Below, piece by piece: positions 360 through 15,383 of a stretch of 64,000 nt of DNA. The stretch's first letter is position 1. The number at the start of each line of letters is the position of its first letter. The position numbers and the translations under genes were made by a program. Origin of the DNA: Nocardia asteroides (lineage in GTDB: Bacteria > Actinomycetota > Actinomycetes > Mycobacteriales > Mycobacteriaceae); NCBI RefSeq assembly GCF_021183625.1, contig NZ_CP089214.1:3782001-3846000 (forward strand), read 5' to 3'. Below the pieces are notes generated by a model. It was not told where the DNA came from. It worked only from the letters and a program-made list of their open reading frames with translations, and ran no database searches.

Positions 360-1988
360 CTACACGCTCCGCAAGAACCGAGCCTGCCGCTCCGGCTCCC
401 GCGGCAACAAATCCAACGCCAGCTCCCATGCCGACCCCGTCCAGGGATCGAACAGCGGCGTCCCGGCCACAGTCGGCAAATGCCGACAGGACTGCGACAA
501 CGCAGCCAACGCACTCTCCGTCGAGTTCGACTCGTTCGCCCCCACGAACACCACCGACAACCCGATCAACCCCCCGCGCAACACCAGCGTCGACAACCGC
601 TGCACATCTATCCCCTGATACCCGTGCGGGAAATCAGCGGCCACCAAAATTCGATGCTCCCCCGGCGGCACCCCCGCCCCACCACTCAGCGCCAGCTCGG
701 CCAGCTCAACAGCCTCCACCAACTCCTGCAGCCGCCCCGAGATCTCGGTGTGATCCCCGATGGGCGCGCCCTCCAGCACCGGCGCGAGCAGCGGGGTAAG
801 ACTCCGAAACCCCTGACTCAGGTCGATGAGATCGACAACCGTCCGCCGCTCCGGAGCCGCCGAAATCAAACGCGCCAGCAGCGCACCCACCACCGGCGCG
901 ACGGCCGCACTCGACTCGGTATCGATCCACAGCGGCCGATTCAACGGAACCGGCACGCAATACGGCACCCGCAACGCCCCACGCTCGATCGCATACAGCT
1001 CCCCGAGCCGAATCCCGTCCGACGCCGCAGGGGGACGATCCCACGCGGGCGCCTCCCAGGAAGCGAGCGCGGGCGGCAGCAGCCGATCCGCCTCGGCAAG
1101 TTCCCGAAGCAGCTGCTCACTGTCCCTGCGGTGATTCCCCTCGGCTATCCCGATCAATTCGTCGTAGCGCCGCTGCGCGAGCTGCCGCGCCTGCTCGGCG
1201 GCGGGGGTGTTCCGGGTGGCCGGATCGGAGACAGCAGCGGAGAGCTCCTGATCCAGCCGCTTGTCGGCATACTCGCGCGCCGCGATCAGCGCCGCCGCGG
1301 ACCGCGCCGCATCCTCGAAGATCATCCAGATCCGCTCGAGGCCGTGCGCCACCTCGAGCGGCGCACCGGCGGCGGACGCGGCTGCGCCGGTGCCGGCGGT
1401 GGCTCCGCCCGGAACGGCTCCCGCGGCGTGGGCGGTACCGCCGGCGGGCGCGGCCCAGCCGGGTGCGGCGGTGCGGCCATCGGTGCTTCCCGCGCTCGCC
1501 GAAGCGGGCGCGGCGATCCCGTGCGCGGGCAGCAGCGCGCCCATCCCGCCCGCGTACCCCTGCCCGACCGCGCGCAGCTTCCACCCGTTCCCGCGCCGGT
1601 ACACCTCGAAGCAGATCAGCGCCGTCTCCCCCGCCGACGGGGTGACGGTGAACCGCGCGATCCCCGCCCCGTCCGCCCCGGTGAGCACGGCGTCGACCAC
1701 GCCGACCCCACCGGGCGGCAGCGGCACCGCCGGGTCGACGGCCACGACGAGCAGCACCGCCTGCGCGTCGGCCCGCACGGCAGGCGGGTCGACGACGACG
1801 GCGCTGCCGGTGAGCGCGACGCCCGGCGCGGCCTGGCACTCCGCGGATACGTGGTCCTCCGGGCCGGTGACCCGCAGGTTGTCCGCCACCACCAGGGCCG
1901 CGAGGCGCAGCGCCGCACCGGCGGAGGCCTCGAATCGCACGGCCCCGCCGGTGAGCGGGATGTTCTGCCCGGCCTGCAACTGGATCAC
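360..1988 (-). CDS. TerD-domain protein fused to a degenerate FtsK/HerA-like ATPase domain
   Basis: 542 aa from a GTG start preceded by GGAG, 14 bp after the stop of the upstream terD gene, so the two are probably cotranscribed. Residues 1-158 form a TerD fold ending RAVGQGYAGGMGALL. The acidic DNxTGEGxGDDE metal-binding motif of canonical TerD is absent. A Pro/Ala/Gly linker (159-210) and a helical segment (about 211-305) follow. Residues 340-542 resemble the nucleotide-binding core of FtsK/HerA motor ATPases: a conserved PLNRPLWID entry strand and a late strand EHRILVAADFPHGY. The Walker A P-loop is replaced by an unrelated segment, so ATP hydrolysis is unlikely. A scaffold or sensor role at the envelope or DNA is inference. 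Confidence 0.75.
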   Translation of the reverse strand: MIQLQAGQNIPLTGGAVRFEASAGAALRLAALVVADNLRVTGPEDHVSAECQAAPGVALTGSAVVVDPPAVRADAQAVLLVVAVDPAVPLPPGGVGVVDAVLTGADGAGIARFTVTPSAGETALICFEVYRRGNGWKLRAVGQGYAGGMGALLPAHGIAAPASASAGSTDGRTAAPGWAAPAGGTAHAAGAVPGGATAGTGAAASAAGAPLEVAHGLERIWMIFEDAARSAAALIAAREYADKRLDQELSAAVSDPATRNTPAAEQARQLAQRRYDELIGIAEGNHRRDSEQLLRELAEADRLLPPALASWEAPAWDRPPAASDGIRLGELYAIERGALRVPYCVPVPLNRPLWIDTESSAAVAPVVGALLARLISAAPERRTVVDLIDLSQGFRSLTPLLAPVLEGAPIGDHTEISGRLQELVEAVELAELALSGGAGVPPGEHRILVAADFPHGYQGIDVQRLSTLVLRGGLIGLSVVFVGANESNSTESALAALSQSCRHLPTVAGTPLFDPWTGSAWELALDLLPREPERQARFLRSV

Positions 1989-2002
1989 GACATCTGCTCC
2001 GC

Positions 2003-3457
2003 TCAGCTGTTCACCAGGAATCGGCCCAGCTGCGGGACCGCCTCGCCCGGGTGCTTGGCCTGGAATCCCTCGCCGAGCGCGACGAACTTCCAGTCGTTGC
2101 CCGCGCGGTAGATCTTGGCCATCGCCATGGCGGTGAACGGCATGCCGCCCGCCAGGGTGAAGCGCGCCAGCTCGGCGTTGTTGCTGCCGTCGACCAGGCG
2201 GCAGAACGCGTTCTGCACCTGTTCGAACGAGTGCCCCTTATAGGAGGTGACGATGAAGAGCAGCGTGTTGACGTGCGCGGGCACCCGGGTGAGATCCACC
2301 AGAATCACCTCGTCGTCGCCGTCGCCCTCGCCGGTCAGGTTGTCGCCCTGGTGCCGGACCGAGCCGTCCTTGGAGCTGAGCTGGCCGTAGTAGGCCACGT
2401 CGACCAGGTTGGTGTCGGCGAACAGGGTGACCGAGGCGTCGAGGTCGATGTCGACGGTGCGGCTGCCGAACATGCCGCGGGTGCGCACCGGGTCCCAGCC
2501 GAGCCCCATCTTGACGAAGGTCAGCTGGGCGCCGCCCTCCTTGCGGAGCGTGACCCGCTGGCCCTTCTCCAGGCTGACCGGCCGGTCCTTGCTCAGGCTC
2601 ACCTCGGCGGGCGGTTGCTGCGGCGGCGCGGCGGGCGGGTAGCCGCCCTGGGGGTGACCCTGCTGCTGCGGGTAGCCGCCCTGCTGCGGGGGCGGCGGGT
2701 AGCCCTGCTGGCCGCCCTGCGGCGGGGGCGGGTAGCCACCGGGCCCGCCCTGCTGCGGCGGGGGCGGGTAGCCGCCCGGCCCACCCTGCTGCGGCGGCGG
2801 GTAGCCGCCCGGCGCGGGCTGCTGCGGCGGCGGGTAGCCCTGGGTCGGCGCGAACTGCTGCTGCGGCGGCGGGTACCCGCCCTGCGTCGGCTGCGCGACC
2901 TGGGTCGGCGCGGGCGGCGGCGGGGGCGGCGCGCTCTGCGCCTGCGGGGCGGGCGAATCGTCGACGCTCACACCGTGGTCGGTGACCAGCGCCGCGAACC
3001 CGCCCGCGTAGCCCTGCCCGACCGCGCGCACCTTCCAGGCGCCCTGGCGCCGGTACAGCTCCAGCGCGATCACGATGGACTCGCTGGCCAGGCCGTCGAT
3101 CCGATACTCGAAGAGCTGGTTGCCCGAGGTGTCGGAGACGATCGCGGTCGGGGCGGGGAACCGGCCGAAGTTGCTGTTCGAATCCTCCAGCGTGATCACC
3201 GCGCGGATCTGCGCGATGTCCGGCGGCACCTGCGCGAGCGAGACCGCGAGCGCCGCGGGCCCCCCGGCCGCGGGCACCAGGTTCACGCCGGGACCGCTCG
3301 GCTGGTTGAAGAAGACGAAGTCGGCGTCGGTGCGGACCTTCCCCTGTTCGGTGACGAGCAGCGCGGAGAGATCCGCGGGAGCCGTGAGCTGGATGGAGAC
3401 CACGACGTCGTTGACTGCCAGTGGGCCGTTCTGGCCTTTGGCGAGTGATGCGGACAA
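2003..3457 (-). CDS. Double TerD-domain protein with Pro/Gln/Gly/Tyr-rich linker
   Basis: 484 aa if it starts at TTG 3457, which has AGGG about 7 nt upstream and places SASLAKGQ at the N-terminus as in other TerD proteins; no ATG or GTG fits as well. Residues 1-168 are a TerD domain without the acidic metal motif. Residues 169-284 are a low-complexity linker of GGYPPPQQ-like repeats. Residues 285-484 are a canonical TerD domain with GDNLTGEGDGDDE, the calcium-binding signature of the family. TerD proteins are cytoplasmic or membrane-associated stress proteins of tellurite/phage/colicin resistance loci. It heads a minus-strand pair with the TerD-ATPase-like fusion and is divergent from the AIM24 operon. 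Confidence 0.8.
   Translation of the reverse strand: MSASLAKGQNGPLAVNDVVVSIQLTAPADLSALLVTEQGKVRTDADFVFFNQPSGPGVNLVPAAGGPAALAVSLAQVPPDIAQIRAVITLEDSNSNFGRFPAPTAIVSDTSGNQLFEYRIDGLASESIVIALELYRRQGAWKVRAVGQGYAGGFAALVTDHGVSVDDSPAPQAQSAPPPPPPAPTQVAQPTQGGYPPPQQQFAPTQGYPPPQQPAPGGYPPPQQGGPGGYPPPPQQGGPGGYPPPPQGGQQGYPPPPQQGGYPQQQGHPQGGYPPAAPPQQPPAEVSLSKDRPVSLEKGQRVTLRKEGGAQLTFVKMGLGWDPVRTRGMFGSRTVDIDLDASVTLFADTNLVDVAYYGQLSSKDGSVRHQGDNLTGEGDGDDEVILVDLTRVPAHVNTLLFIVTSYKGHSFEQVQNAFCRLVDGSNNAELARFTLAGGMPFTAMAMAKIYRAGNDWKFVALGEGFQAKHPGEAVPQLGRFLVNS
2600..2910 (-). repeat. Low-complexity repeats encoding the PQGGY linker of the double TerD protein
   Basis: On the plus strand the units GGCGGGTAGCC and CTGCTGCGG recur at irregular intervals of about 24-36 bp. 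On the minus strand they encode repeated GGYPPPPQQ blocks. This is an in-frame linker of variable unit length, prone to length changes between strains. Confidence 0.7.
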
Positions 3458-3676
3458 GTTCGACCCTTCGCTTGTCGGTGCGTTCGAAGCCACTCTACGA
3501 GAATCGCCCGCGGGCGCGGCGGCGTGAACACCCTGGGGACAATTGGGGACAAATCGGAACCTGTGCACAACCGGCGTTCGCGAAGACCGCAGGCCACAGC
3601 CGGATCGGTTACTGTGTCGCTCGCACGGAACACCGCGAACCCTGCGCCGTTCCCCCGAGACCACAGGCGACTTCCT
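3458..3676. promoter_or_regulatory. Divergent intergenic region between the terD pair and the AIM24 operon
   Basis: This 219-bp gap separates divergent transcription units, so it must hold promoters in both directions. It contains a tandem GGGGACAA (3535-3542 and 3545-3552, 10-bp period), which could be a regulator site. No promoter with a convincing -35/-10 pair was found, so exact starts are not assigned. Confidence 0.35.
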
Positions 3677-4300
3677 ATGGCACAGCTGTTCGAGCAGTCG
3701 AAGAAGGTGATCGAAGCCCACCTCGCCGGCACCAGTGTCCGCGCGATCTCCGGCTCGATGATCGCCTACGAAGGAAACGTGCAGTTCAAGTCCGCCGGAT
3801 TCGGCGGCGGCGACGGCGTGCTGGCCGGGCTCAAGCGCCGCGCCACCGGTGAGAAGCTCTCGCTCATGGAGTGCGGCGGCAACGGCCGCGTCTTCTTCGC
3901 GGTGAACGGGCAGAACGTCACCGTCGTGAACCTGAACAACGAGACGCTGCAGGTGGAGTCGCAGCAGTTGCTCGCCTTCGCGGGCAACCTGCGCACCGAC
4001 ATCCGCTTCGCCGGGGTGCGCGGCGCCACCACCGGCGCGGGGCTGTTCACCACGACGGTCACCGGGCAGGGCCAGGTGGCGCTGCTCTCCGCGGGCGGCC
4101 CGCTGATCCACCTCGAGGTCAGCCCGCAGTACCCGCTGATCGTCGATCCGGACGCCTTCGTGGCGGCGCAGGGCAATCTCAACCAATCCTTCGTCACCGA
4201 CGTCTCGTGGCGCACGGTCATGGGTTCGGACGCGGGCGAGGCGTTCTCGCTGCGCTGGGACGGGCAGGGCGTCGTACTGATCCAGCCCGCGGAACGGTAA
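3677..4300 (+). CDS. AIM24 family protein (first of three tandem copies)
   Basis: 207 aa, starting MAQLFEQSKKV. A longer frame from 3524 is less likely because its extra residues are compositionally unlike the protein. The whole sequence fits the AIM24/TIGR00266 beta-rich domain: a SAISGSMIAYEG-like first hairpin, a glycine-rich TGAGLFTTTVTGQGQVAL centre, and YPLIVDPDAFVA near the end. Yeast AIM24 is a mitochondrial inner-membrane organiser. Bacterial homologues have no settled function but often sit with terD genes. The next AIM24 gene starts 10 bp downstream, so this is the lead gene of an operon. No signal peptide or membrane helix is seen. Confidence 0.8.
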   Translation: MAQLFEQSKKVIEAHLAGTSVRAISGSMIAYEGNVQFKSAGFGGGDGVLAGLKRRATGEKLSLMECGGNGRVFFAVNGQNVTVVNLNNETLQVESQQLLAFAGNLRTDIRFAGVRGATTGAGLFTTTVTGQGQVALLSAGGPLIHLEVSPQYPLIVDPDAFVAAQGNLNQSFVTDVSWRTVMGSDAGEAFSLRWDGQGVVLIQPAER

Positions 4301-4310
4301 GGGGCGCAGC

Positions 4311-5024
4311 ATGTTCGAGAAGGTCAACGGCAAGGTCGTCAAGGTGAACACCGGCGCGGCGGGCGGCGTGGTCGCGCGCAAGGGCGCGATGCTCTTCTAC
4401 ACCGGCGACGTCTCGTTCTCCCCGCACCAGATCGCGGGCATGGGCGGCGGCGGCATGGGCGGCATGGGCGGCGGCATGATGCGCATGGCCGGCCGGATGA
4501 TGGCTGGCGAGCACGAGAGCACGATGCTGGCCCAGGGCAACGGCGAGGTGCACTACGGCCTGGCCGGGCTGGAGGTGCACGTGGTGCAGATGCAGCAGGG
4601 GGCGGTGCTCCGGGTGGAGGCCTCCCGGCTGCTGGCCAACTCCGCGCAGCTGCAGAGCTCGATCGTCTCGGTGGCGAGCTCGAACAGCGGTGGCGGCGGT
4701 GGTGGCGGCGGCATCATGGGCGCGCTGCGCGGCGCCGCCTCCGGCGCGCTCACCGGGCAGGGCATGTTCACCACCCAGCTCAGCGGCCAGGGCGCGGCGG
4801 TGCTGCTCGCGCACGGCGGGTTCCTGGAGTTGCAGGTGGGCGGGCCGAACCCGATCGTGGTCGATCCGCAGGCCTTCGTTGCCGCGTACGGCAATGTGCA
4901 GACCGAGCTGAAGACGGCGATGAGCTGGCGGGACGCGGTCGGCCGCGGCGCCGGTGAGGCGATGCAGCTGCACTGCGTCGGCCAGGGCATCGTCTACGTG
5001 CAGGCCTCCGAAGAGAAGTTGTGA
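4311..5024 (+). CDS. AIM24 family protein (second of three tandem copies)
   Basis: 237 aa from ATG 4311 with AAGGGG about 6 nt upstream. It has the same AIM24 architecture as its neighbours, with MFTTQLSGQGAAVLLAHGG in the middle and PNPIVVDPQAFVAAYG towards the end. Two glycine-rich insertions set it apart: a Gly/Met block near residues 44-66 and a run of eight glycines near residue 130. Such Gly/Met loops are flexible and may mediate self-assembly or membrane contact (inference). It ends 3 bp before the third copy, implying one polycistronic mRNA and possibly a hetero-oligomer of all three. Confidence 0.8.
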   Translation: MFEKVNGKVVKVNTGAAGGVVARKGAMLFYTGDVSFSPHQIAGMGGGGMGGMGGGMMRMAGRMMAGEHESTMLAQGNGEVHYGLAGLEVHVVQMQQGAVLRVEASRLLANSAQLQSSIVSVASSNSGGGGGGGGIMGALRGAASGALTGQGMFTTQLSGQGAAVLLAHGGFLELQVGGPNPIVVDPQAFVAAYGNVQTELKTAMSWRDAVGRGAGEAMQLHCVGQGIVYVQASEEKL

Positions 5025-5027
5025 GCC

Positions 5028-5792
5028 ATGAGCCAGATCCTGAACCCCATGAATCTCGGTGAGAGCGACAACATCCCGGGAAACAGCTACGCGTACTCCA
5101 TCGACCTGAACAAGCCCTGGTTCATGCGCAAGGGCGCGATGATCGCCTACTACGGGCAGATGAACTTCCAGGTGCTCACGCACGGCCTGCACGGCGGGCT
5201 GCTGAACATGGTGTCGCAGCAGTTCTCCGCGCCGCTCTTCACCAGCGATTACGTGGTGGCCGAGGGGCAGGGGAAGCTGATCATCGGCGACCGCGGCTAC
5301 GACATCAACTCCTACGACCTGGACGAGGGCAACCTCACCATCCGCGCGGCGAACCTGCTCGCCTTCGAGCCGGGGCTCTCGCTGAACCAGTCCATCGTGC
5401 CCGGCTTCCTCACCCTGATCGGCACCGGCAAGTTCCTCGCCTCCTCGAACGGCCCGGTCATGTTCGCCGAGCCGCCGCTGCGGGTCGACCCGGAGTCCCT
5501 GGTCGGCTGGGCGGACTGCCCGTCCCCGAGCCACCACTACGACCAGCGCTGGATCACCGACTTCCTGGCGGCGGGCGCGGCGCGGTTCGGCGTCAGCTCC
5601 GGTGAGGAGCGGCAGTTCGACTTCACCGGCGCGGGCACCGTGCTCATCCAGTCGAGCGAGAAGGTGCTCAGCGATTCCCAGGTGGTCCGCACCATCGAGG
5701 GGCAGCTGCAGAGCGGGATGACGGTCGGCGGGCTGCAGCGGTTGCAGGGCGTGATCACCCAGCAATTGGCCGGACAGCAGCAACAGTACTGA
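5028..5792 (+). CDS. AIM24 family protein (third of three tandem copies)
   Basis: 254 aa from ATG 5028, only 3 bp after the previous stop, so translation is probably coupled. AIM24 hallmarks include the N-terminal KPWFMRKGAMIAYYGQMNF strand pair, GFLTLIGTGKFLASSNGPV and LRVDPESLVGW. It carries a longer C-terminal tail (about 35 residues) ending in a glutamine-rich QQLAGQQQQY. The three copies are diverged at sequence level, so the array is an old duplication. The function is unknown; the position inside a Ter island suggests an envelope-stress role. Confidence 0.8.
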   Translation: MSQILNPMNLGESDNIPGNSYAYSIDLNKPWFMRKGAMIAYYGQMNFQVLTHGLHGGLLNMVSQQFSAPLFTSDYVVAEGQGKLIIGDRGYDINSYDLDEGNLTIRAANLLAFEPGLSLNQSIVPGFLTLIGTGKFLASSNGPVMFAEPPLRVDPESLVGWADCPSPSHHYDQRWITDFLAAGAARFGVSSGEERQFDFTGAGTVLIQSSEKVLSDSQVVRTIEGQLQSGMTVGGLQRLQGVITQQLAGQQQQY

Positions 5793-5885: not shown

Positions 5886-6935
5886 ATGTCGATCCGCCGC
5901 GCCGGTAGGCGAACCATGGTCGCGGCGGTACTCGCCGCCTGCCTGATCGGCTCGGTGAGCCCGGCTCTCGCCGAGCCCGCACCGGCCCCGAACGTCGTGA
6001 CCGCCAAGGCGGTCGCGCCGGGCGGCTCCTACGTGGAGAAGGTGGAGGCACTCAACGCGCGCAACGTCCGGCTGCACATCCACTCGGCCGCCATGAACAA
6101 GACCCTGCTCGTGGATGTGCTGCGGCCCGCCGACACCTCGGTGCCGCGGCCCTCGCTCTACCTGCTGAACGGCGCGGGCGGCGGCGTCGACTCGGCCTCC
6201 TGGCAGCGGATGACCGACGCGCTGCAGTTCCTCGGCGACAAGAACGTCAACGTGGTGCAGATCATCGGCGGCGCCTGGACCTTCTACACCGACTGGAAGT
6301 CGACCGACCCGGTCCTCGGCGTGAACAAGTGGAAGACCTACATCAGCGAGGAGCTGCCGCCACTGGTCGACGCGGTGCTCGGCACGAACAAGGTGAACGC
6401 CATCGCCGGGCTCTCGATGTCCGGGGTGTCGGTGCTGAACCTGGCCATCGCCAAGCCGGGGCTGTACCGCAGCGCGGCCGTCTACAGCGGGCTGGCGCAG
6501 ACCAGTGACCCGATCGGCCAGAACATGGTGAAGGTCACCGTGGAGACCTGGGGCGGCGGCGACGCCGAGAACATGTGGGGCCCGGCCGACGACCCGCTGT
6601 GGAAGGCGAACGACCCGATCGTGAACGCCGAGCAGCTGCGCGGCACCGACCTGTTCGTCTCCACCGGCAGCGGGGTCCCCGGCGTCTACGACGAGCCGGG
6701 CGGGAAGTTCCGGCTGGAGAAGCCGGCCGACACCCCGCAGACCGTCGCGATCGGCGCGGTCATCGAGGCGGGCGTCAACTGGTCCACGCACAACCTGGAC
6801 AATCGCCTGCGCGAGCTCGGCATCCCCGCCACCTTCGTCTACCGCGACAGCGGCACCCACTCCTGGGGCTACTGGCAGGACGACCTCAAGGCCTCCTGGC
6901 CCGTCCTGGAGAAGGGCCTGAACTCCCAGCCCTGA
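5886..6935 (+). CDS. Secreted alpha/beta-hydrolase of the antigen 85/mycolyltransferase-like esterase family
   Basis: 349 aa with GAAGGACAAGG as ribosome binding site. Residues 1-29 are a typical Sec signal peptide (RRAGRR basic end, hydrophobic core, SPALAEP cleavage region). The mature part has the esterase D/antigen 85 fold: LYLLNGAGGG, a nucleophile elbow GLSMSG, and a late THSWGYW containing the probable catalytic His. Family members transfer mycolic acids between trehalose esters and arabinogalactan or act as carboxylesterases. The gene follows the AIM24 operon after 93 bp, which contains a TATATT -10 candidate at 5810-5815, so it may have its own promoter. It could equally be a non-mycolyl esterase. 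Confidence 0.8.
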   Translation: MSIRRAGRRTMVAAVLAACLIGSVSPALAEPAPAPNVVTAKAVAPGGSYVEKVEALNARNVRLHIHSAAMNKTLLVDVLRPADTSVPRPSLYLLNGAGGGVDSASWQRMTDALQFLGDKNVNVVQIIGGAWTFYTDWKSTDPVLGVNKWKTYISEELPPLVDAVLGTNKVNAIAGLSMSGVSVLNLAIAKPGLYRSAAVYSGLAQTSDPIGQNMVKVTVETWGGGDAENMWGPADDPLWKANDPIVNAEQLRGTDLFVSTGSGVPGVYDEPGGKFRLEKPADTPQTVAIGAVIEAGVNWSTHNLDNRLRELGIPATFVYRDSGTHSWGYWQDDLKASWPVLEKGLNSQP

Positions 6936-7001: not shown

Positions 7002-7024
7002 GGGGTAGGCCGACGGCCTACCCC
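7002..7024. terminator. Bidirectional hairpin terminator between the esterase and HAD genes
   Basis: Perfect inverted repeat GGGGTAGGCC (7002-7011), loop GAC, GGCCTACCCC (7015-7024). It lies between convergent genes and overlaps the HAD stop codon. There is no T-run, as is usual for actinobacterial terminators. Confidence 0.6.
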
Positions 7025-7872
7025 GCGAGCCTTTTCGCCACCGTGGCGGCGGACGCACGGACGCCGGTGTGGAACCACTCCACCATCTCGGCCCCCGCAT
7101 CGGCCCCCCGCGACTCCGTGAGCACGAGATTCGGGCTGCTCCAGCCCAATTCCTCCAGCTCCCCGTGCCGCGGCCGGACAGCGAGATCCGCGGACGCGAG
7201 CAACTCCGCGTCCAACGCCCCGTCCCCCGCGGCGAGCAACGGCGCGTCGAGCGCCAGCCGACCCTCGTCGAGCAACCGCCGCCGAACCTCGGCAACGGCA
7301 ACGCTCTTGCACACCGCCACCGGCATGGCATAGATCTTCCGCCCCTGCTGCGAGGCACTCCACCCGTGCGCCCGGCACCACCCGTCCCACTCCGCGAGGA
7401 ACCCAGCGGGCATGGCCGCCACGTTCACCACCAGGTAGCAGAAGAGCTCGTCCGCCTCCCGGAACTTGAGCACCCAGGAATCGTCGATCCGCCGCAGCAG
7501 CTCGGCCCGCACCTCGGCCAGCCCGGCCCCGCCTGCCGCCGCCTCCCGCCCGGCCGCCGCCCGCCACGCACTATCCGGCTCCCCGTCGACCAGCAGGTTC
7601 CCGCCGTTGCTCGTCACCGCGTACCGGAACGGCCCGCCGGGCAGCGCGATCCGCCGGTACTGCTCGATGGTCCTGGTGGTGGTCGGCAGCACGACGGCGA
7701 GCCCGGCCAGCTCCCGGAGCCGGAGGGCGGCCCGCTCGGTCATGAAGGAGAGCGGCTCGCCGTCCAGATACTCCACGCAGACCAGCGCTTCGGCGTCCCC
7801 GCTCGCCGCCAGGGAGTAGATCATGGTGCGGTCCAGGTCGGTGGCCACCAGGGCCGGTAGAGCAGAGCTCAC
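7018..7872 (-). CDS. HAD-superfamily phosphatase of the Ter-linked biosynthetic operon
   Basis: 284 aa from GTG 7872, overlapping the stop of the PRTase fusion by GTGA, so it is translationally coupled. Motif I is ATDLDRTMIYS (DxDxT) and the late motif is GDGALD (GDxxxD), both intact. A central insertion is consistent with a Cof-like cap domain (inference). HAD enzymes of this type dephosphorylate sugar or nucleotide phosphates. As the last gene of a run with phosphoribosyltransferases and a C-C lyase, it plausibly removes the 5'-phosphate from a nucleoside-like product. That is the role proposed for HAD members of TerD-associated operons; the substrate is not known. Confidence 0.8.
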   Translation of the reverse strand: MSSALPALVATDLDRTMIYSLAASGDAEALVCVEYLDGEPLSFMTERAALRLRELAGLAVVLPTTTRTIEQYRRIALPGGPFRYAVTSNGGNLLVDGEPDSAWRAAAGREAAAGGAGLAEVRAELLRRIDDSWVLKFREADELFCYLVVNVAAMPAGFLAEWDGWCRAHGWSASQQGRKIYAMPVAVCKSVAVAEVRRRLLDEGRLALDAPLLAAGDGALDAELLASADLAVRPRHGELEELGWSSPNLVLTESRGADAGAEMVEWFHTGVRASAATVAKRLAG

Positions 7873-10211
7873 TGCACGTCCTTGATCAATCCCATGCACG
7901 AATAGGCCAGGTCGGGCACGACCTCGACCGGGACCTCCCGCGCCGCGGCCAGCATCCGGATGTGCGCGTGCTCCGGCGCGTCGGCCGCGCGCACCAGCAC
8001 CCGCCACGGCACCCGGCGCAGCAGCACGCGCGTGGTCTCCCCGACCCCCGGCTTGACGAAATTGACCGTGCCGATGCCGTACTCGGCGCGCACCCGCTCC
8101 ACCGACGCCCATCCGGTCCAGGTCGGGGTGCGGTCGCCTGCCCGGAGCGCCGCCACCTGCGCCGGAACCCGGTCGCGCACGGTGTCGAAGGCCGCGGTGA
8201 CGGTGTCGAGCAGCCGCCCGGAGACGTCGTCGGCGGCGAGTTCGCGGTAGAACTTGGCGCCGTGGAAATCGCGGGGCCCGATCAGCTCGGCGTTGAGCAC
8301 GGTGCGGGAGACCAGCCCGGAGACGGTGGAATTCAGGCAGGCCGAGGCGATCAGGAAATCGTCGCGGGTGCCGAAGGTGCGCACGCAGTTGCCCGGGTCG
8401 GCGAGCACCGCGAGCTCGCCGTCGAAGCGGGCGCCGCCTGCGGCGCGGTACTCGTCCAGCGCGGCGGTGAGCTCCCTGGCGATGGCGCCCTTGCCGGTCC
8501 AGCCGTCCACGAAGACCACCGAGGCGGGGTCGTGCTGCGCCGCCAGGTAGTCCAGCGCCACCGCGTCGATGCCTCGATCGCGCACGATGGACACGGCGTA
8601 GTGCGGCACCTCCAGCGCCGGGCTCCGGCGCTGCAGCCAGCGCCGCATGAGGATGCCGATCGGCGTCCCCGCCCTGGCCAGCGAGGCCAGCACCACGTCG
8701 TCTCCGCGCTCGGCGACCACCAGCTCGGCCACCGTGCCGACGGCGAGCGCGAGCCGCTCGGCGCTGTCGGCGAGCACCTTCTCGAACAGCTCGCGGTAGG
8801 CGGCGTCCGGCTGGAACTCGATCGGCAGCGACTCCGCGTAGTGCGCGACCCCGGCCTGGATCCGGCGCTCCCGCTCCGCCACATCGGCCTCCAGGTCGAG
8901 CGCGGAGAGGTCTTTGAGCAGCCAGGCCACCTCGTCGGCGGCGTAGGAGCCGAAGTCCGGGCCGTACAGCGGCTCCGGCAGCGCGCGGGCTGCGCGCAGC
9001 GACCGCGGATCGGCGCCGGGAACCACCGCGACCAGCACGTCGGCGCCCGCGGCGGTGAGCACGTCGAGCAGCCCGCCCGCGGCGGTGAGCGCGGGGGTGT
9101 CGGCCGGTTCGTCCAGTACCAGCACGAGCAGCGGGTCGGCGCCGGGCCAGGCCGCGTTGTAGAGGTAGCGCGGCGCGGCGTCGCCGGACTCCGGCGCGGT
9201 GAACCGGAAACCGCGGCGCAGCGGGTAATCCGGCTCGTCCAGCACGTACGCCGGTGAGCGCGTCGTGGTCTGGAACCGCGCCGGGGTACCCGCCGCGGCC
9301 AGTGCCCCGGCCAGGCGAAGCGGCAGGTACATGAGCTCCTCGTGGCCGATCACGACGACCGGCCGGGCCGGGTCGAGCCCGCTCCGCAGCTCCGCCGCGG
9401 CGGCGTTCAGCGCCTGCTCGAACCCGGGCAGATCGGTGCGCAGGAACCCGTGCCGCCCGCCCTCCGGAACGGCGTCGGGCCACGGCAGCCGCACCCGCGC
9501 CACCGAACCTCGCCGCGCGGCGACCGGGTTCAGCCGGTGCTCGGGCAGCGCCGCCACCGCGGCGGGCAGGTCGGCGGGCACCTCGGCGCGCCCCGCCGCC
9601 AGGCACACGGTGTCGATCCGGGCGCCCAGCTCCGCGGCCGCGGCCTCGACCTTCGCCCGATCCGCCGCCGTGCGCATGTCGACCAGGCTGGCCAGCACGT
9701 AGTGCGTGCGCGGCGCGACGGCGTGCAGCGCGCGCAGCGCGTCCAGCGCGGTGGCCCCGGTCGAGATCTCGTCGTCGACCAGGACCAGCGGCAGCCCGTC
9801 GGCGAAGACCTCGGCGGGCTCCGGCTGCAGCAGGTGCGAGGTGGCGTGCGAGTGCCCCTCCTCGAACCCGGCGAGCGTATGCGCGCCAGGCACCGCGCGG
9901 CGGGTGGAGTGCAGGTAGCACCTGGCGCCGATCCGGGCGGCGACGCAGTGCCCGAGCCCGGTCGCGGTCTCGGCGAAGCCGAGCACGACGGCGTCGCTCG
10001 CGCCGAGCCGCTCGCGCACCAGGTCACCCAGGCGATTCCCGGCGTCGAGCACCGCGGCGGGGTCGGTCGGGATGTGCTTGCCGAGCACCGTGGAGACCAG
10101 CAGGTGCGCGCGGCGCTCGTTGCCCTTGCGCAGCCCCGGCTCGATCAGCCCGGGATCGGCGCCGGCCGGGTAGCTGAGCGCGACCCCGAGCTCCCTGGTC
10201 GCCCAGCTCAT
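7869..10211 (-). CDS. Four-domain fusion: PRTase - TRSP - StiP-like PRTase - PELOTA RNA-binding domain
   Basis: 780 aa, starting at an ATG that overlaps the lyase stop (ATGA). Residues 1-225 are a phosphoribosyltransferase with the PRPP loop LVLVDDEISTGATALDAL (about 142-159). Residues about 235-430 match the TRSP domain that follows such PRTases (GRHGFLRTDLPGFE, VVVIGHEELMYLPLRLA). Residues about 430-690 form a second PRTase of the class once annotated as cysteine protease StiP, with PRPP loop VVFVDGWTGKGAIAREL (565-581). Residues 700-780 are a PELOTA/L7Ae-like RNA-binding module ending SCMGLIKDVQ. Both PRPP loops look catalytic. In descriptions of these families the two halves are normally separate proteins. 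The enzyme probably attaches ribose phosphate to bases or base-like precursors. Confidence 0.85.
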   Translation of the reverse strand: MSWATRELGVALSYPAGADPGLIEPGLRKGNERRAHLLVSTVLGKHIPTDPAAVLDAGNRLGDLVRERLGASDAVVLGFAETATGLGHCVAARIGARCYLHSTRRAVPGAHTLAGFEEGHSHATSHLLQPEPAEVFADGLPLVLVDDEISTGATALDALRALHAVAPRTHYVLASLVDMRTAADRAKVEAAAAELGARIDTVCLAAGRAEVPADLPAAVAALPEHRLNPVAARRGSVARVRLPWPDAVPEGGRHGFLRTDLPGFEQALNAAAAELRSGLDPARPVVVIGHEELMYLPLRLAGALAAAGTPARFQTTTRSPAYVLDEPDYPLRRGFRFTAPESGDAAPRYLYNAAWPGADPLLVLVLDEPADTPALTAAGGLLDVLTAAGADVLVAVVPGADPRSLRAARALPEPLYGPDFGSYAADEVAWLLKDLSALDLEADVAERERRIQAGVAHYAESLPIEFQPDAAYRELFEKVLADSAERLALAVGTVAELVVAERGDDVVLASLARAGTPIGILMRRWLQRRSPALEVPHYAVSIVRDRGIDAVALDYLAAQHDPASVVFVDGWTGKGAIARELTAALDEYRAAGGARFDGELAVLADPGNCVRTFGTRDDFLIASACLNSTVSGLVSRTVLNAELIGPRDFHGAKFYRELAADDVSGRLLDTVTAAFDTVRDRVPAQVAALRAGDRTPTWTGWASVERVRAEYGIGTVNFVKPGVGETTRVLLRRVPWRVLVRAADAPEHAHIRMLAAAREVPVEVVPDLAYSCMGLIKDVQ

Positions 10212-11419
10212 TCCGTCACCAGCGCGGTGAGCAGGTCGACGAAGGAGACGCCCTTGTTCGCCACCCCGAAGACCCGCGCGCGCAACACCGTCTGCCTGGC
10301 CCAGCTGCGGTGCGGGCGCATCTCGTTCATCTTGTTCCGGTAGCCGGAGGCCGCGACCCCGCCGACGTCGGCGCGCAGGATGTCCAGGGCGTCCGAGTAC
10401 TCCTCGTGCGTCACCACCGAGAGCGCGTGCACGGCGGCCACGTGCGACGGGTGGATCACCGTCTTGCCCTGGATGCCGTTGGCCCGGTCCAGCGTGATCT
10501 CCCTGAGCAGCCCGTCCAGATCCCGGCTCACCAGGTACTGGCGGAATTTCACCGCGTCCGACTCCTCGAAGGGGGCGGTGCGCAGCAGCGGCCGGAACAT
10601 CCGCTCGTGGTCGGCGAAGTACTCCCAGACCGGGCCGGTGATCACGAAGCCGGAGCCGTCGGCGCGGCCGAGGTAGTTCACGATGTCGGCGATCACGTCG
10701 GCGACCACCCGGACGTCATAGATGGTGAGGTCGCGGTCGCGGCGGATGCCGAAGGTGGCGCACATGTCGGTGGCGCCGACCCGCACCGCGAGCACCTGCT
10801 CCCGGTGCGCGGCCAGCAGCTCCGCGATCCGGGTGAGCTCCCGGTCCCTGGTCTGCCGGTGCACCAGCGCCGCCGACTCCAGCACCGGCATGGCGTACAC
10901 GGTCCGGCCGAGCCGCTGCGTCGCCACCGCGAGCGCCGCGAAATAGGAGGGGCCACTGAGGCTGTCGAACTTGGGGAAGACGAAGCCGGTGAGCACCGCG
11001 GCGCCGGGGCCGAGCGCCTCCGCGATCTCGGTGATGGTGGCGGCGTCGCGCACCCGCACGAAGAGCATCGGGTTGGGGTCCGGGTCGGCGGCGAGCTCGT
11101 CGAGCACCGCGACCGTCTGCGCCTTCGCCCACTCGACCTCGTGGTCGGCGACCGCGTCCTCCAGGTCGATCACCATGGAACAGACCCCGCGCGCGGCCCG
11201 GCGGCGGATGGTTCCCGCCAGGTCGTCCCTGGTCGCCGGGACATACAGCGTCGCGCCGAGCGCGATCGCGAGCAGCTCCCGCTCGTCGCCGTCGCCGAAC
11301 GACTGCGGCCGCCGGTGGAACAGCTCCGGCGCCCTTCCCGCCGGCAGCTGCCGGAAATGGCACAGCAGCTTCCGTTTGCGCAGGGAGACCTCCTGCGCGA
11401 CGGCAACGCTCGCGGTCAT
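10208..11419 (-). CDS. HpcH/HpaI (CitE-like) C-C bond lyase of the Ter-linked operon
   Basis: 403 aa. TIM-barrel CitE features include TLYVPATRDDL (substrate phosphate/CoA region), SMVIDLEDAVADHE (acidic Mg site), PNPMLFVRVRD and TGFVFPKFDS, then AVRVGATDMC and the closing IQGKTVIHPSHVAAVH. CitE-family enzymes cleave or form C-C bonds next to a carbonyl. In Ter-linked operons this subfamily has been proposed to make a carbon skeleton for a nucleoside-like metabolite. It overlaps the downstream PRTase gene by 4 bp and lies 13 bp after the helical protein gene. Beyond the lyase fold the substrate is unknown. Confidence 0.8.
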   Translation of the reverse strand: MTASVAVAQEVSLRKRKLLCHFRQLPAGRAPELFHRRPQSFGDGDERELLAIALGATLYVPATRDDLAGTIRRRAARGVCSMVIDLEDAVADHEVEWAKAQTVAVLDELAADPDPNPMLFVRVRDAATITEIAEALGPGAAVLTGFVFPKFDSLSGPSYFAALAVATQRLGRTVYAMPVLESAALVHRQTRDRELTRIAELLAAHREQVLAVRVGATDMCATFGIRRDRDLTIYDVRVVADVIADIVNYLGRADGSGFVITGPVWEYFADHERMFRPLLRTAPFEESDAVKFRQYLVSRDLDGLLREITLDRANGIQGKTVIHPSHVAAVHALSVVTHEEYSDALDILRADVGGVAASGYRNKMNEMRPHRSWARQTVLRARVFGVANKGVSFVDLLTALVTE

Positions 11420-11432
11420 CGCGGCCCCGTCC

Positions 11433-12647
11433 TCATCCTCGTCGTTGTCCTGGTTCTTTTCGCATGCGATCCACCACGCCGGTGATGAATTCCGCGATGG
11501 TGTCGAGCTCTGTGACGTATGCCCAGTAGTTCGGGTGCCTACCGGTCAGGGCGGCGGCGGCGCGATCGATCCGGTCGATCTGAGCATCGAGTACCGAACC
11601 CCATTCGGCGACGAGCCCTCGGCTCACCGCGAGCATCTGCGCGTCCCGCAGCCGGAATCGTACGGCCTCGGCCTTGGAATTCGGGTTCGCGGCGACCTCG
11701 CGCAGCAGGGTGAGTCGCCGGGTGACGGCATCGACCTGCTGCTCGGCCGCCGCGAGGCTGGCGCGCGCGGAAGTGGTCAGTTCAAGCGCGGTCTCCGGAT
11801 CGTGCGCGGCCGCCGCGGCCCGCGCACCCGCGAGGGCGGTGTCCGCGGCGGCGACGGCCTGCTGGCTATCCCGCTCATTGTTGGTCAGATCCGCCGAACT
11901 CGCAGCGTTGAACTCGCGCAGCAGCGCCGAGTAGGCGGCGGCGAGCCCTTCGGCCCTGGTCCGGACGGCGGCGATGCGGGTGGTCACCGAGGCGATCGCA
12001 TTGGCCGAGGCGCCGCGTCGAGAAGGGGCCTGCGCCAATGCTTCCGACAGCAGCGCGGTCAGCTCGCGCAGCGCGATCGCGGCGGCGCGCACCCGGCCGG
12101 GCCCGGCCGTGGTGGCCGCGGCCAGTGTGAGCAGCGCCTCATCCACCGCGGCGACCCCGGAGCGAATCGAGCGGTATCCGGCGTACTCCGAGCTCGCGGC
12201 GGCACCGAGCACCCGCTCCGCCTCGGTGCTCACCTCCTCGGCGAACCGGGGCACCGCGCCGAGCACCGCGACCGCGTCCGCCAGCCGGGCCCGGTTCGCG
12301 TTCCAGAACTCGTCCACCGCGCGCGCCGCCTCGGCGAGCTGCCTGGTGACCTGCTCGGCGCGCGGCGCACCGCCCGGCACCTGGGTGCCGTCCCGCTCCG
12401 CCGCCTCCAGGTCGTCGTTCAGGGCCAGATACACCTCGGCCGCCGCGTAGCAGCGGTTGCGGACCGGTTCCCAGCGCCGCGCGAGCGCCGGATCGGGCCG
12501 CACCTCGGCGACCGCCCGCACCGCCGAATCGGCAGCGCTCTGCCGTCGGTCCATGTCGAGAAAGGCCGCGACCACACCGGCCCGAGCCTGCTCGATCCAC
12601 TCGTCGCGCCCCGACGAGCCGAACCATCCACGCCTGCGCCCTGCCAC
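11433..12647 (-). CDS. Uncharacterised helical (coiled-coil) protein, first gene of the Ter-linked biosynthetic operon
   Basis: 404 aa from GTG 12647. I do not recognise a family. The sequence is almost entirely Ala/Glu/Arg/Leu-rich with heptad-like spacing, so it should be a long bundle of alpha helices. There is no signal peptide, no hydrophobic segment and no cysteine cluster. The N-terminus RRRGWFGSSGRDEWIEQAR is basic and aromatic. It is the promoter-proximal gene of the run helical protein - lyase - PRTase fusion - HAD, and is divergent from terD at 12780. A scaffold for the biosynthetic enzymes or a TelA-like partner are possibilities without sequence proof. Confidence 0.65.
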   Translation of the reverse strand: MAGRRRGWFGSSGRDEWIEQARAGVVAAFLDMDRRQSAADSAVRAVAEVRPDPALARRWEPVRNRCYAAAEVYLALNDDLEAAERDGTQVPGGAPRAEQVTRQLAEAARAVDEFWNANRARLADAVAVLGAVPRFAEEVSTEAERVLGAAASSEYAGYRSIRSGVAAVDEALLTLAAATTAGPGRVRAAAIALRELTALLSEALAQAPSRRGASANAIASVTTRIAAVRTRAEGLAAAYSALLREFNAASSADLTNNERDSQQAVAAADTALAGARAAAAAHDPETALELTTSARASLAAAEQQVDAVTRRLTLLREVAANPNSKAEAVRFRLRDAQMLAVSRGLVAEWGSVLDAQIDRIDRAAAALTGRHPNYWAYVTELDTIAEFITGVVDRMRKEPGQRRG

Positions 12648-12779
12648 GCCCCGATCGTAGGAGATGGCCCTGAGTGCCGGTTCCTACGCAAGTTCGCCGA
12701 AACCTACTAGTGTCGTATGGCGTACCCGGCGATTCGGACATGTCGGGATCACACACCGACCATCGAAAGGGATTCCCGC
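12648..12779. promoter_or_regulatory. Divergent intergenic region between the biosynthetic operon and terD-DUF475-terA
   Basis: These 132 bp separate two oppositely oriented Ter operons and must contain both promoters. CTACTAG (about 12708-12714) is the least GC-rich stretch and could hold a plus-strand -10. No convincing palindromic operator was seen. The plus gene has GAAAGGG as its ribosome binding site. Confidence 0.35.
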
Positions 12780-13355
12780 ATGGGTGTCAGTCTGTCCAAG
12801 GGCGGCAACGTTTCGCTGAGCAAGGCAGCCCCCAACCTGACGGCCGTCGCGGTCGGCCTCGGCTGGGACGTCCGGACCACAACGGGTACCGACTTCGACC
12901 TGGATGCCAGCGCCATCGCGGCGGGCGCGGACAAGAAGGTCGTGTCCGACCAGCACTTCGTGTTCTTCAACAACCTGAAGTCCCCCGAGGGCGCCATCGA
13001 GCACGCCGGCGACAACCGCACCGGCGAGGGCGAGGGCGACGACGAGGTCATCAACGTCGACCTGGCCAACACCCCGGCGAACATCGAGAGCATCGTCTTC
13101 CCGGTCTCGATCTACGACGCGGAGACCCGCCAGCAGTCCTTCGGCCAGGTCCGCAACGCCTACATCCGGGTCTCGGATCGCAGCAACGGCGAGGAGCTCG
13201 CCCGCTACGACCTCTCCGAGGACGCCTCCACCGAGACCGCGATGGTCTTCGGCGAGCTGTACCGCAACGGCGCCGAGTGGAAGTTCCGCGCCATCGGCCA
13301 GGGCTACGCCTCCGGGCTGTCCGGCATCGCGCGCGACTACGGCGTCAACGTCTGA
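12780..13355 (+). CDS. terD: Canonical single-domain TerD tellurium-resistance/stress protein
   Basis: 191 aa from ATG 12780 with GAAAGGG 8 nt upstream; the 21-codon extension to 12717 lacks a site and family similarity. It starts MGVSLSKGGNVSLSK as classical TerD/TerE do. It keeps the two acidic calcium-site clusters DFDLDASA and GDNRTGEGEGDDE, plus the C-terminal WKFRAIGQGYASGL. TerD binds Ca2+ and is thought to work with TerC at the inner membrane in resistance to tellurite, phages and pore-forming colicins. Here it precedes the TerC-like DUF475 gene, with a strong hairpin between them, so it may be made in excess over the membrane protein. Confidence 0.9.
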   Translation: MGVSLSKGGNVSLSKAAPNLTAVAVGLGWDVRTTTGTDFDLDASAIAAGADKKVVSDQHFVFFNNLKSPEGAIEHAGDNRTGEGEGDDEVINVDLANTPANIESIVFPVSIYDAETRQQSFGQVRNAYIRVSDRSNGEELARYDLSEDASTETAMVFGELYRNGAEWKFRAIGQGYASGLSGIARDYGVNV

Positions 13356-13372
13356 CGCACGACCACGCGTGA

Positions 13373-13396
13373 GGGGGCCCGGTAACGGGCCCCCTT
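13373..13396 (+). terminator. Hairpin downstream of terD
   Basis: GGGGGCCCG (13373-13381), GTAA loop, CGGGCCCCC (13386-13394), then TT. Outer complementary CGCACGA and TCGTGCG could extend the stem. It lies between terD and the DUF475 gene and may be a partial terminator within the operon. Confidence 0.65.
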
Positions 13397-13489
13397 CTCG
13401 TGCGGTGTCGTCCCAGGTGGACAATGCGCGGCGACGCATTCACCCTGGACGGCGGTCAAGTCCGGCCTCGACAACGAAAGGTCCCCCCG

Positions 13490-14629
13490 GTGGTCCTGCG
13501 CATATTCGGCCTCTCCGGCCTCGTCACAGTGATCTCACTGGTCGCGGCCTTCCTGTACGGCGGCCCGACCGCACTGTTCCTCTGCCTCATCCTCGGCATC
13601 CTCGAGGTGTCGCTCTCCTTCGACAACGCCGTCATCAACGCCACGGTCCTGCGGCGGATGAGTGATTTCTGGCAGAAGATCTTCCTCACCGTCGGCATCC
13701 TGATCGCTGTCTTCGGCATGCGGCTGCTGTTCCCGCTGGCGATCATCTGGGTCACCGCGGGGCTGAACCCGGTGCAGGCGTTCGACCTCGCGCTGAACCC
13801 GCCCGCCGACGACGCCGCCTACTTCCCGGACGGCAGCGCGAGCTACGAAACCCTGATCACCGACGCGCACCCGCAGATCGCGGCCTTCGGCGGCATGTTC
13901 CTGGCGCTGCTCTTCCTGAACTTCATCTTCGAGGAGCGCGACATCACCTGGCTGAGCTGGCTGGAGAAGCCGCTGGCCAAGGCGGGCAAGCTGGACATGC
14001 TCTCGATCGTGGTCTCCGGTATCGCGCTGGTGCTGGCCGCGGAGTTCCTGGCCGACGACGACAACCGCGCCACCGTGCTGCTGGCCGGGCTGCTCGGCAT
14101 GATCACCTACATCGCCGTCGACGGCCTCGGCTCGATGTTCCATACCGAGGAGGTCGAGGACGACCTCGACGAAGCGGGCAAAGAGCTGGATGGCAAGCGC
14201 ACCGGCCCCTCCGAGCTGGCCAAGGCCACCGGTAAGGCGGGCTTCTTCCTCTTCCTCTACCTGGAAGTCCTCGACGCCTCGTTCTCCTTCGACGGCGTCA
14301 TCGGCGCCTTCGCCATCACCGCCGACCCGATCATCATCGCGCTCGGCCTCGGCCTGATCGGCGCCATGTTCGTCCGCTCGATCACCGTTTACCTGGTCCG
14401 CCAGGGGACGCTGTCCGAGTACGTGTACCTGGAGCACGGCGCGCACTGGGCGATCGGCGCGCTCGCCACCATCCTGCTGGTCTCGATCGGCGTGCACATC
14501 AACGAGATCATCACCGGCCTGGTCGGCGTCGCCTTCATCGGCGCCGCCTTCTGGTCGAGCATCCGGCGCAACCGCAAGGCGGCCGCCGCGGAGGCCGGCA
14601 ACGAGCCGGCGACCACCCCGGTCGCCTGA
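13490..14629 (+). CDS. DUF475/TerC-like integral membrane protein
   Basis: 379 aa from GTG 13490, with AAAGG 8 nt upstream; the longer frame from 13400 runs through the terminator region and is unlikely. About nine hydrophobic segments are visible. The TerC signatures EVSLSFDNAVINA (near residue 38) and EVLDASFSFDGVIGAF (near 265) supply the acidic residues in the membrane that suggest metal-ion transport. TerC/DUF475 proteins act with TerD in resistance to tellurite and, in some lineages, export Mn2+. A charged cytoplasmic loop (EEVEDDLDEAGKELDG) separates the two halves. Placed between terD and terA, it is the membrane anchor of this Ter set. Confidence 0.88.
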   Translation: MVLRIFGLSGLVTVISLVAAFLYGGPTALFLCLILGILEVSLSFDNAVINATVLRRMSDFWQKIFLTVGILIAVFGMRLLFPLAIIWVTAGLNPVQAFDLALNPPADDAAYFPDGSASYETLITDAHPQIAAFGGMFLALLFLNFIFEERDITWLSWLEKPLAKAGKLDMLSIVVSGIALVLAAEFLADDDNRATVLLAGLLGMITYIAVDGLGSMFHTEEVEDDLDEAGKELDGKRTGPSELAKATGKAGFFLFLYLEVLDASFSFDGVIGAFAITADPIIIALGLGLIGAMFVRSITVYLVRQGTLSEYVYLEHGAHWAIGALATILLVSIGVHINEIITGLVGVAFIGAAFWSSIRRNRKAAAAEAGNEPATTPVA

Positions 14630-14648
14630 CCGTCACGCACCACCCCGC

Positions 14649-14684
14649 CCCGGAGCGGCAGCGAGATTTCGCTGCCGCTCCGGG
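14649..14684 (+). terminator. Strong 16-bp hairpin terminator after the DUF475 gene
   Basis: CCCGGAGCGGCAGCGA (14649-14664), loop GATT, and the exact reverse complement (14669-14684). It lies 19 bp after the DUF475 stop. With no T-run it is a typical GC-rich actinobacterial terminator. Confidence 0.75.
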
Positions 14685-14753
14685 CATTTCCGGGGTCGCG
14701 CGCGTTAGGCTCGGAGCCACCTGACCACCGTGTCGAGTTGGAGGGGGATCGCG

Positions 14754-15383
14754 ATGGCGGCCGACAACCGGGCCGGGACCGGCGGCGTCGACCTGAACAA
14801 GGTGACGCTCTCGAAGGCGGCGCCAAGCGTCGACCTCGCCAAACCGGGGGAATCGCAGGGGGTTCTGCGCGTCAACCTCCGCTGGGCCAGCGGCAAGCCC
14901 CGGCTCTTCCGCCGCGGTGGCTCGATCGATCTGGACCTCGGCTGCCTCTACGAACTCGCCGACGGCAGCAAGGGCGTGGTGCAGGCGCTCGGCAACAACT
15001 ACGGCTCGCTGCACGCGCCGCCCTTCATCGAGCTGGACGGCGACGACCGCAGCGGCGGCTCGGTCGGCGGCGAGACCATGCGGATCGATCTCGGCCGCCC
15101 GGAACAGTTCCGCCGGGTGCTGATCTTCGCCTTCATCTACGAGGGCGTGCCGAACTGGGCGGCCGCCGACGGGGTCGTCACGCTCTTCCCGACCACCGGC
15201 CCGCAGATCGAGGTGCGGCTGGACTCCCCGGTGAACGACGCCCGCTCCTGCGCCATCGCGCTGCTCAGCAATACCGGCGGCCGGATCTCGGTGCGCCGCG
15301 AGGTGAACTACATCAGCGGGGCGCAGCAGGCGCTGGACGAGGCGTACCGCTGGGGGATGCAGTGGCGCGAGGCGCGGAAGTGA
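14754..15383 (+). CDS. TerA/TerD-family tellurium resistance protein
   Basis: 209 aa from ATG 14754 with GGAGGGGG 6 nt upstream. It resembles the TerA branch: VDLNKVTLSKAAPSVDL at the start, RVNLRWA, then SIDLDLGCLYELADG and LDGDDRSGG, which supply acidic metal-site residues, and FAFIYEGVPNWAAADGVVTL in the core. It lacks the DNxTGEG form of the site. It is the last gene of the terD-DUF475-terA series but sits behind a strong hairpin, so it may be transcribed separately. Its last 71 bp overlap the convergent GT87 gene. Confidence 0.8.
   Translation: MAADNRAGTGGVDLNKVTLSKAAPSVDLAKPGESQGVLRVNLRWASGKPRLFRRGGSIDLDLGCLYELADGSKGVVQALGNNYGSLHAPPFIELDGDDRSGGSVGGETMRIDLGRPEQFRRVLIFAFIYEGVPNWAAADGVVTLFPTTGPQIEVRLDSPVNDARSCAIALLSNTGGRISVRREVNYISGAQQALDEAYRWGMQWREARK

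Follow-up and report, generated by a model that had tools for sequence, protein, structure and literature searches.

What might be made by four adjoining genes that lie between two sets of ter genes on an actinobacterial chromosome? We addressed this question in Nocardia asteroides (assembly GCF_021183625.1, contig NZ_CP089214.1, positions 3,782,001 to 3,846,000), using a 64,000-nt stretch, hereafter the window, of a genome that consists of a single contig of 6.99 Mb. The four genes encode an all-helical protein (termed HEL), a C-C bond lyase, a phosphoribosyltransferase (PRTase) fusion, and a HAD phosphatase. In 2012, Anantharaman, Iyer and Aravind reportedly proposed a Ter biosynthetic module, a proposal that we take from citing papers, and an earlier note on this DNA had read the locus as a complete Ter island enclosing such an operon. 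We find that the locus is a real and well conserved actinobacterial variant of this module, the general proposal itself being already old. The reading that we favor, with about even confidence, is that this chromosomal actinobacterial form of the Ter biosynthetic module synthesizes a ribosylated metabolite, with both the product and the chemistry being predicted.

Operon structure and conservation of the module

The operon lies on the minus strand and runs from HEL (11433..12647), its first gene, through the lyase (10208..11419) and the PRTase fusion (7869..10211) to the HAD gene (7018..7872). As the earlier note had placed them, these genes sit between a set of TerD and AIM24 genes on one side and a TerD, DUF475, and TerA-like set on the other. 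Genes were called from codon-position bias together with their translations; the genes named here lie at the coordinates given and have the codon-position bias typical of coding sequence, except that the HAD gene was missed by bias and was settled by translation. The coupled starts that the earlier note had pointed out, ATGA at the lyase/PRTase junction and GTGA at the PRTase/HAD junction, where the GTG start of the HAD gene overlaps the PRTase stop, are real and are conserved across loci. With a script that favored overlapping starts wherever one existed, 77 of 81 loci showed a 4-nt overlap between the lyase and PRTase genes and the remaining four a 1-nt overlap; between the PRTase and HAD genes, the overlap was 4 nt in 67 of the 81. 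The PRTase and StiP parts of the fusion form one gene in 27 of the 81 loci and separate genes in 54, of which 33 have a 1- or 4-nt overlap, and the gene fusion suggests that these parts act together.

A -10-like hexamer, TACGAT (12654..12659, minus strand), is located 6 nt ahead of the GTG start of HEL and is a putative leaderless promoter. Across loci, TANNNT is present 6-9 nt before the HEL start in 67 of 74 cases, compared to 123 of 16200 random positions (one distant HEL copy was left out, starts were placed by script, and the count is inflated by related sequences). The same motif was found at 0 of 81 HAD, 0 of 77 lyase, 0 of 67 PRTase, and 0 of 39 DUF475 starts, and at 3 of 48 TerD starts. 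Because of this placement of TANNNT before the HEL start, HEL probably leads a leaderless operon transcript.

To gauge conservation of the module, we sampled 251 genomes from the Nocardia family, of which 132 match the lyase strongly (E below 1e-110), 10 match it only weakly, and 109 do not match it; the best named relative for the lyase among the matches listed is in Nocardia harenae (96% identity), and nearer records are possible. Neighborhoods of 9 to 20 kb were taken for 80 of the 131 lyase genomes other than our own. In all 80, HAD, PRTase, and lyase lie on one strand, and at least one TerD-domain gene is present (TerD paralogues cross-match, so only the presence of any TerD is meaningful); DUF475 is found in 79, HEL adjoining the lyase in 74, and the first AIM24 gene and TerA in 28 each. 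A second set of 80 actinobacterial loci, some of them cut by contig ends, contained TerD in 80, PRTase in 79, HAD and DUF475 in 78 each, and HEL in 77 (adjoining the lyase in 74). In Rhodococcus erythropolis NBRC 15567 (locus L149), for instance, HEL, the lyase, the PRTase and StiP parts, the HAD, TerD, and DUF475 are all present and keep this gene order. Both sets were chosen via the lyase match, and their counts are therefore conditional on lyase. By our estimate, a random 20 kb stretch of the genome would contain a TerD in about 4% of cases. As HAD, PRTase, and lyase occur together with TerD in 80 of 80 neighborhoods, the linkage is not due to chance; the earlier note had beforehand made its reading depend on conservation of the linkage to terD in relatives, and this is what we find.

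Outside the family, 197 genomes were surveyed across the phylum. The lyase model PF15617 also matches other genes weakly (at E 0.001 it gives matches in 86 of the 197 genomes, and in 56 these exceed the cut-off), and true lyases were defined as those above 400 bits, which are present in nine genomes, the next best match scoring 48.7 bits. Among 72,556 plasmid records, 2512 also encode a relative of the lyase at E up to 1e-5. Of 27 candidates on viral contigs, none was confirmed by an alignment scan. Separately, an unverified 15 kb scaffold from human faeces deposited as 'Bacteriophage sp.' (MT836648, L194) has three TerD matches, StiP, PRTase, and a lyase at 30%, and one relative (L065) has two lyase copies separated by 4 kb, with HEL not detected.

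Domains and invariant residues of the encoded proteins

The lyase is of the CitE/HpcH-type TIM barrel kind (PF15617, 4.9e-123, 410.8 bits), and its profile matches structures of citrate lyase and malyl-CoA lyase. E181 and D218, which we take to be metal ligands, are invariant in 23 sequences. The PRTase fusion consists of PRTase_2 (PF15609, 2.6e-61, 206.9 bits) and TRSP (PF12500, 3.1e-32, 111.6 bits), both above cut-off, followed by StiP (PF11202, 5.8e-104, 347.1 bits) and PELOTA_1 (PF15608, 1.7e-34, 117.9 bits). The PRTase_2, TRSP, PELOTA_1, and lyase families are tied to Ter by the plasmid ter loci.

In the structural model of the fusion, residues 15-210 adopt a PRTase fold, matching adenine phosphoribosyltransferase (APRT) with a Z score of 14.3 (173 residues aligned, 3.2 A), and the domain contains a phosphoribosyl pyrophosphate (PRPP) motif, DDEISTGAT, of which D146, D147, E148, T151, G152, and T154 are invariant in 83 sequences. 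The fusion thus shares both a fold and a PRPP loop with the type I PRTases, adenine and orotate phosphoribosyltransferase (OPRT), but differs from them in having only 14% identity to the top match and in carrying TRSP, StiP, and PELOTA. Fold searches with the whole-protein model were filled by matches to this N-terminal domain, and StiP, TRSP, and PELOTA were barely probed by fold.

StiP is labeled a cysteine protease in Pfam and in plasmid annotation, and its Pfam description names tellurite-like stress. An alignment of 84 StiP domains (81 actinobacterial, including that of the window, and three others) contains no invariant cysteine: both proteobacterial plasmid sequences have Ile in place of C625, and two of the three outgroups have Arg and Val in place of C609. 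Within a narrower alignment of 18 sequences, C609 and C625 are both invariant, and the cysteine result is thus dependent on the alignment. The residues that are invariant across the 84 sequences (D569, G570, W571, G573, K574, and G575) occupy a strand-loop-helix setting like that of a PRPP loop, and this pattern of conservation speaks against the protease label.

The HAD protein has no Pfam match and only a weak NCBIfam match (HAD-IIB, 0.00068), and its profile matches PDB entries 6cj0/6d3v at 6e-22 over positions 2-232. D12, D14, T65, K189, D217, and D221 are invariant in 24 of 24 sequences and, by the HAD motifs, are presumably catalytic. The HAD of the Pseudomonas plasmid ter locus, whose gene is positioned between the PRTase and StiP genes, is nearly the same protein as 6d3v, a crystallized 'trehalose phosphatase', with which it aligns at 531.7 bits over 251 residues, and is present at 95% identity or above on 115 of 2554 matching plasmid records. 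A study of an extra-chromosomal enzyme of P. aeruginosa (PMC6838324) assayed it as a trehalose-6-phosphate phosphatase, names Cys85 and Cys231, and cites Cross 2018 as the primary structure paper; its consulted passages make no mention of a ter context. Cysteines fall at positions 85 and 231 by counting in the alignment of the Ter HAD with 6d3v, and we infer from this that 6cj0, 6d3v, and 6d3w are the P. aeruginosa extra-chromosomal enzyme. One step of the Ter pathway has therefore probably been purified and assayed already under another name, which makes the HAD, with crystal structures available for a close relative, a handle on the module. This P. aeruginosa protein is a close relative of the plasmid ter HAD and is matched by the Nocardia HAD profile; it is described as a trehalose enzyme, and Nocardia has a separate trehalose-6-phosphate phosphatase family gene, located far from the island.

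In Pfam and NCBIfam, HEL reaches the cut-off of no family, and PADLOC and PHROGs gave no match to it at E 0.01; AlphaFold2 predicts the protein to be all-helical (pLDDT 94.2). After exclusion of three weak matches (E above 1e-4), a strong HEL match was observed in 126 of the 251 family genomes. All 126 have a strong lyase match, while HEL was found in 0 of the 119 genomes that do not (p 3.6e-65, Fisher's exact test, uncorrected for shared ancestry). In the 197-genome survey, HEL occurs in the same nine genomes as the true lyase and in none of the other 188, the nine spanning only two genera. Seven of the nine are outside the genus of the window, and in these HEL is on the strand opposite to the lyase and separated from it by ~4 to 10 kb, so direct adjacency of HEL and lyase is a feature of the nearer relatives. 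These sequence comparisons indicate that the module has HEL as a partner. Two genomes have a further copy of the C-terminal half of HEL away from the contig of the operon: in G014 (contig 22) it covers profile positions 187-399 within a 555-residue reading frame, and in G040 (contig 26) positions 207-399 within one of 538 residues.

Searches of the PDB with the HEL profile returned weak matches to a designed three-helix bundle (0.0014), EzrA (4uy3, 0.0043), and chemoreceptors (0.008), while Foldseek gave no match under E 0.001, with 4uy3 at E 0.52. VIA-align yielded Z scores of 12.2 and 9.6, which are below the guide value of the tool for helical bundles. The cytoplasmic domain of EzrA, made of spectrin-like rods, is like HEL in arrangement only: both are elongated helical bundles (4uxv, Z 9.6, 343 residues aligned), but at 14 A root-mean-square deviation and 10% identity we claim no family membership, and the resemblance may reflect no more than a common arrangement. 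Among the titles and the starts of abstracts of the top-ranked literature, the text of the 2012 proposal being outside this scope, we recognized no published description of HEL or of the module product.

Readings of the module's chemistry

If the module synthesizes a ribosylated metabolite, one transcript, probably leaderless and starting at HEL, would yield HEL, the lyase, the PRTase fusion, and the HAD. The metal-dependent lyase would make or trim a small acceptor, to which the PRTase_2 domain would attach phosphoribose from PRPP. The TRSP/StiP/PELOTA part, possibly containing a second PRTase-like site and an RNA-binding tail, may then process or hold the intermediate, and the HAD would strip the phosphate to leave a ribosylated, nucleoside-like product. 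The TerD and AIM24 proteins are predicted to bind this product, which, along with the DUF475/TerC-type membrane protein, would serve in a response to envelope stress, and HEL, as a rod of helical bundles, may serve as a scaffold. We know of no product assigned to the module.

Several observations weigh against this reading. HEL is not detectable in 6 of the 132 lyase genomes and is thus not strictly required. A comparison of StiP with PRTase_2 using hhalign gave a probability of 0.5 of 100, with no relation found, and the second PRTase site in StiP therefore has the resemblance of the motif as its basis. The purified relative of the HAD was named and assayed as a trehalose-6-phosphate phosphatase. 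Moreover, that no Ter ATP-grasp was found may mean that the product differs from that of the plasmid module or that the set of enzymes is incomplete. For this protein, the E. coli plasmid sequence finds nothing in the N. asteroides genome in a search that had no positive control, and the E. coli and Pseudomonas sequences, which match each other at 43%, match nothing in the 80 + 80 actinobacterial loci. The Pfam ATP-grasp model was tried and discarded as a test of presence, being unspecific (it matches 13 of 14 control genomes); the sole PF15632 match over cut-off in the genome (29.9 vs 29.1 bits) is far from the island. We treat the Ter ATP-grasp as a feature of the proteobacterial form, so that the failure to find it bears on the variant and not on the homology of the shared enzymes, and the compact four-gene actinobacterial operon, in which no ATP-grasp was detected, may represent a minimal form.

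A more specific version gives HEL a larger part: as a dedicated core subunit, it would stand in for ATP-grasp/TelA-type components by holding the lyase, PRTase fusion, and HAD together, and the ribosylated signal would differ from the proteobacterial one. We regard this as doubtful. We also set aside the idea that HEL is itself a TelA homologue: TelA was not found in the genome with a model that matched 3 of 14 control genomes, HEL not having been compared with TelA directly. Alternatively, the module could act on RNA, with the PELOTA-bearing protein bringing PRTase and lyase chemistry to tRNA or another RNA for base modification or repair. PELOTA_1 is fused to StiP in both Nocardia and the Pseudomonas plasmid copy, and an RNA-binding domain has no obvious use in small-molecule synthesis; however, the model of the PRTase domain resembles free-base PRTases such as APRT and OPRT, and a phosphate-removing HAD would better suit a small phosphorylated product, so that we consider action on RNA unlikely, and less probable than a core role for HEL. 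A role for the enzymes in degrading or salvaging nucleotides or bases damaged by oxidative or metal stress, with no signal made, ranks lower again. PRTases salvage free bases and HADs clean up odd nucleotides, and the neighboring Ter genes are stress genes, but a C-C lyase would be unusual in salvage, and the conserved linkage to TerD genes, whose products are reportedly proposed to be ligand binders, is easier to understand with a sensed product.

The HAD itself suggests that the module might instead handle sugar phosphates in stress, the enzyme being a true phosphatase of trehalose-6-phosphate or another glycoside phosphate. The match of the Pseudomonas plasmid HAD to 6d3v/6cj0, the score of the Nocardia profile against the same structures, and the reported assay all favor this, yet the genome holds its separate and distant trehalose-6-phosphate phosphatase family gene, all 80 of 80 loci place the HAD beside a PRTase and a lyase, and we know of no role for these two enzymes in trehalose metabolism. 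On balance we find a sugar-phosphate function improbable, and more so than salvage. Finally, the genes might be a chance neighborhood of unrelated stress genes with no common pathway, as illustrated by the esterase in their midst, which is such a passenger (1 of 80), and by the 18 TerD matches in the genome, which mean that TerD neighbors are not rare. The joint occurrence of HAD, PRTase, lyase, and TerD in 80 of 80 neighborhoods, the overlapping frames, the gene fusion, and the presence of the lyase in 132 of 251 relatives make this very improbable indeed. Relative to synthesis of a ribosylated metabolite as already proposed, what our analysis adds is the co-occurrence of HEL and lyase, the putative leaderless promoter of HEL, the near identity of the Pseudomonas plasmid HAD to a crystallized 'trehalose phosphatase', and the StiP cysteine result.

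Flanking genes and comparison with known ter systems

To the left of the operon, two TerD-type genes lie on the minus strand. The first (360..1988) encodes a TerD-domain protein in which PF02342 matches residues 64-153 only (6e-12), leaving ~380 C-terminal residues with no assigned family; residues 197-542 gave no convincing PDB sequence match by phmmer. By eye, this C-terminal part (window 360-1400) has a layout reminiscent of an FtsK/HerA-like ATPase minus the Walker A motif. The second (2003..3493) encodes a tandem TerD protein with two TerD stretches (PF02342, 6.8e-76), its start taken as the GTG at 3493; a longer mechanical open reading frame, up to 4381, is antisense to an AIM24 gene. 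AIM24 is indeed present on this side, as the earlier note had it, with three genes rather than one, all on the plus strand: 3677..4300 (PF01987, 2e-35), 4311..5024 (3.1e-23), and 5028..5792 (3.8e-15). Between these and the HAD sits an esterase gene absent from the earlier note (5886..6935, plus strand, PF00756), with a 94% counterpart in N. harenae. It is found in 1 of 80 family neighborhoods and 4 of 80 further actinobacterial loci, and is a local extra.

On the right, all on the plus strand, are a TerD gene (12780..13355, start placed at 12780; PF02342, 8.7e-84), a gene for a DUF475 membrane protein (13400..14629; PF04332, 3.5e-133) that also matches the TerC family (PF03741, 1.9e-14, 54.2 bits), and a gene for a TerA-like protein (14730..15383). 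The last has no Pfam or NCBIfam match; over residues 20-217 it shares 44% identity with the TerD-family gene that, by gene order, occupies the putative terA position on an E. coli plasmid. Genome-wide, the 18 TerD-domain matches fall in about 13 places, several within long reading frames. An Rfam scan of the window gave nothing above gathering scores, and PADLOC gave a single weak partial match, to an AIM24 protein. Elsewhere in the window, a DnaB helicase gene is split by an intein with a LAGLIDADG domain (21098-24667), and a 1701-aa type I polyketide synthase (45627-50732), together with a neighboring AMP-binding enzyme (41104-42675), may mark a lipid or polyketide locus (41104-50732).

The classical TerZABCDEF operon has TerB and TerC beside TerD and TerA, whereas the Nocardia island has DUF475 in place of TerC, and the one TerB match in the genome, at 1.35 Mb, is outside the island. 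With the Ter ATP-grasp and TelA not found and TerB ~2.4 Mb away, the island is not 'complete' as the earlier note had called it. A study of Klebsiella reports that terZ-F is by itself enough to make E. coli MG1655 resistant to tellurite (PMC8115787); we therefore do not accept survival on tellurite as evidence for the pathway, since it would be a poor readout for the biosynthetic genes. Another Klebsiella study suggests a role of the ter operon in envelope stability (PMC9933665), which favors the proposed envelope link.

The ter loci of E. coli and Pseudomonas plasmids encode an ATP-grasp protein (PF15632), PRTase_2-TRSP, HAD, StiP(-PELOTA), and lyase; the E. coli plasmid record has no annotated StiP gene, yet StiP sequence was detected in it. 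The same families thus occur at the N. asteroides locus, and the earlier reading is partly supported: the enzyme families and the TerD linkage hold, the word 'complete' does not, and the nucleoside-like nature of the product and any tie to metal sensing are putative. Specifically, the Nocardia form shares with the plasmid module the PRTase, TRSP, StiP, PELOTA, and lyase families, with lyases ~28-32% identical, as well as the linkage to the TerD family. It differs in that an ATP-grasp was not found, the PRTase and StiP parts are fused, and HEL stands in front, and in having DUF475 and AIM24 rather than the TerB and TerC of the plasmids, at a locus that is chromosomal and widespread in the family.

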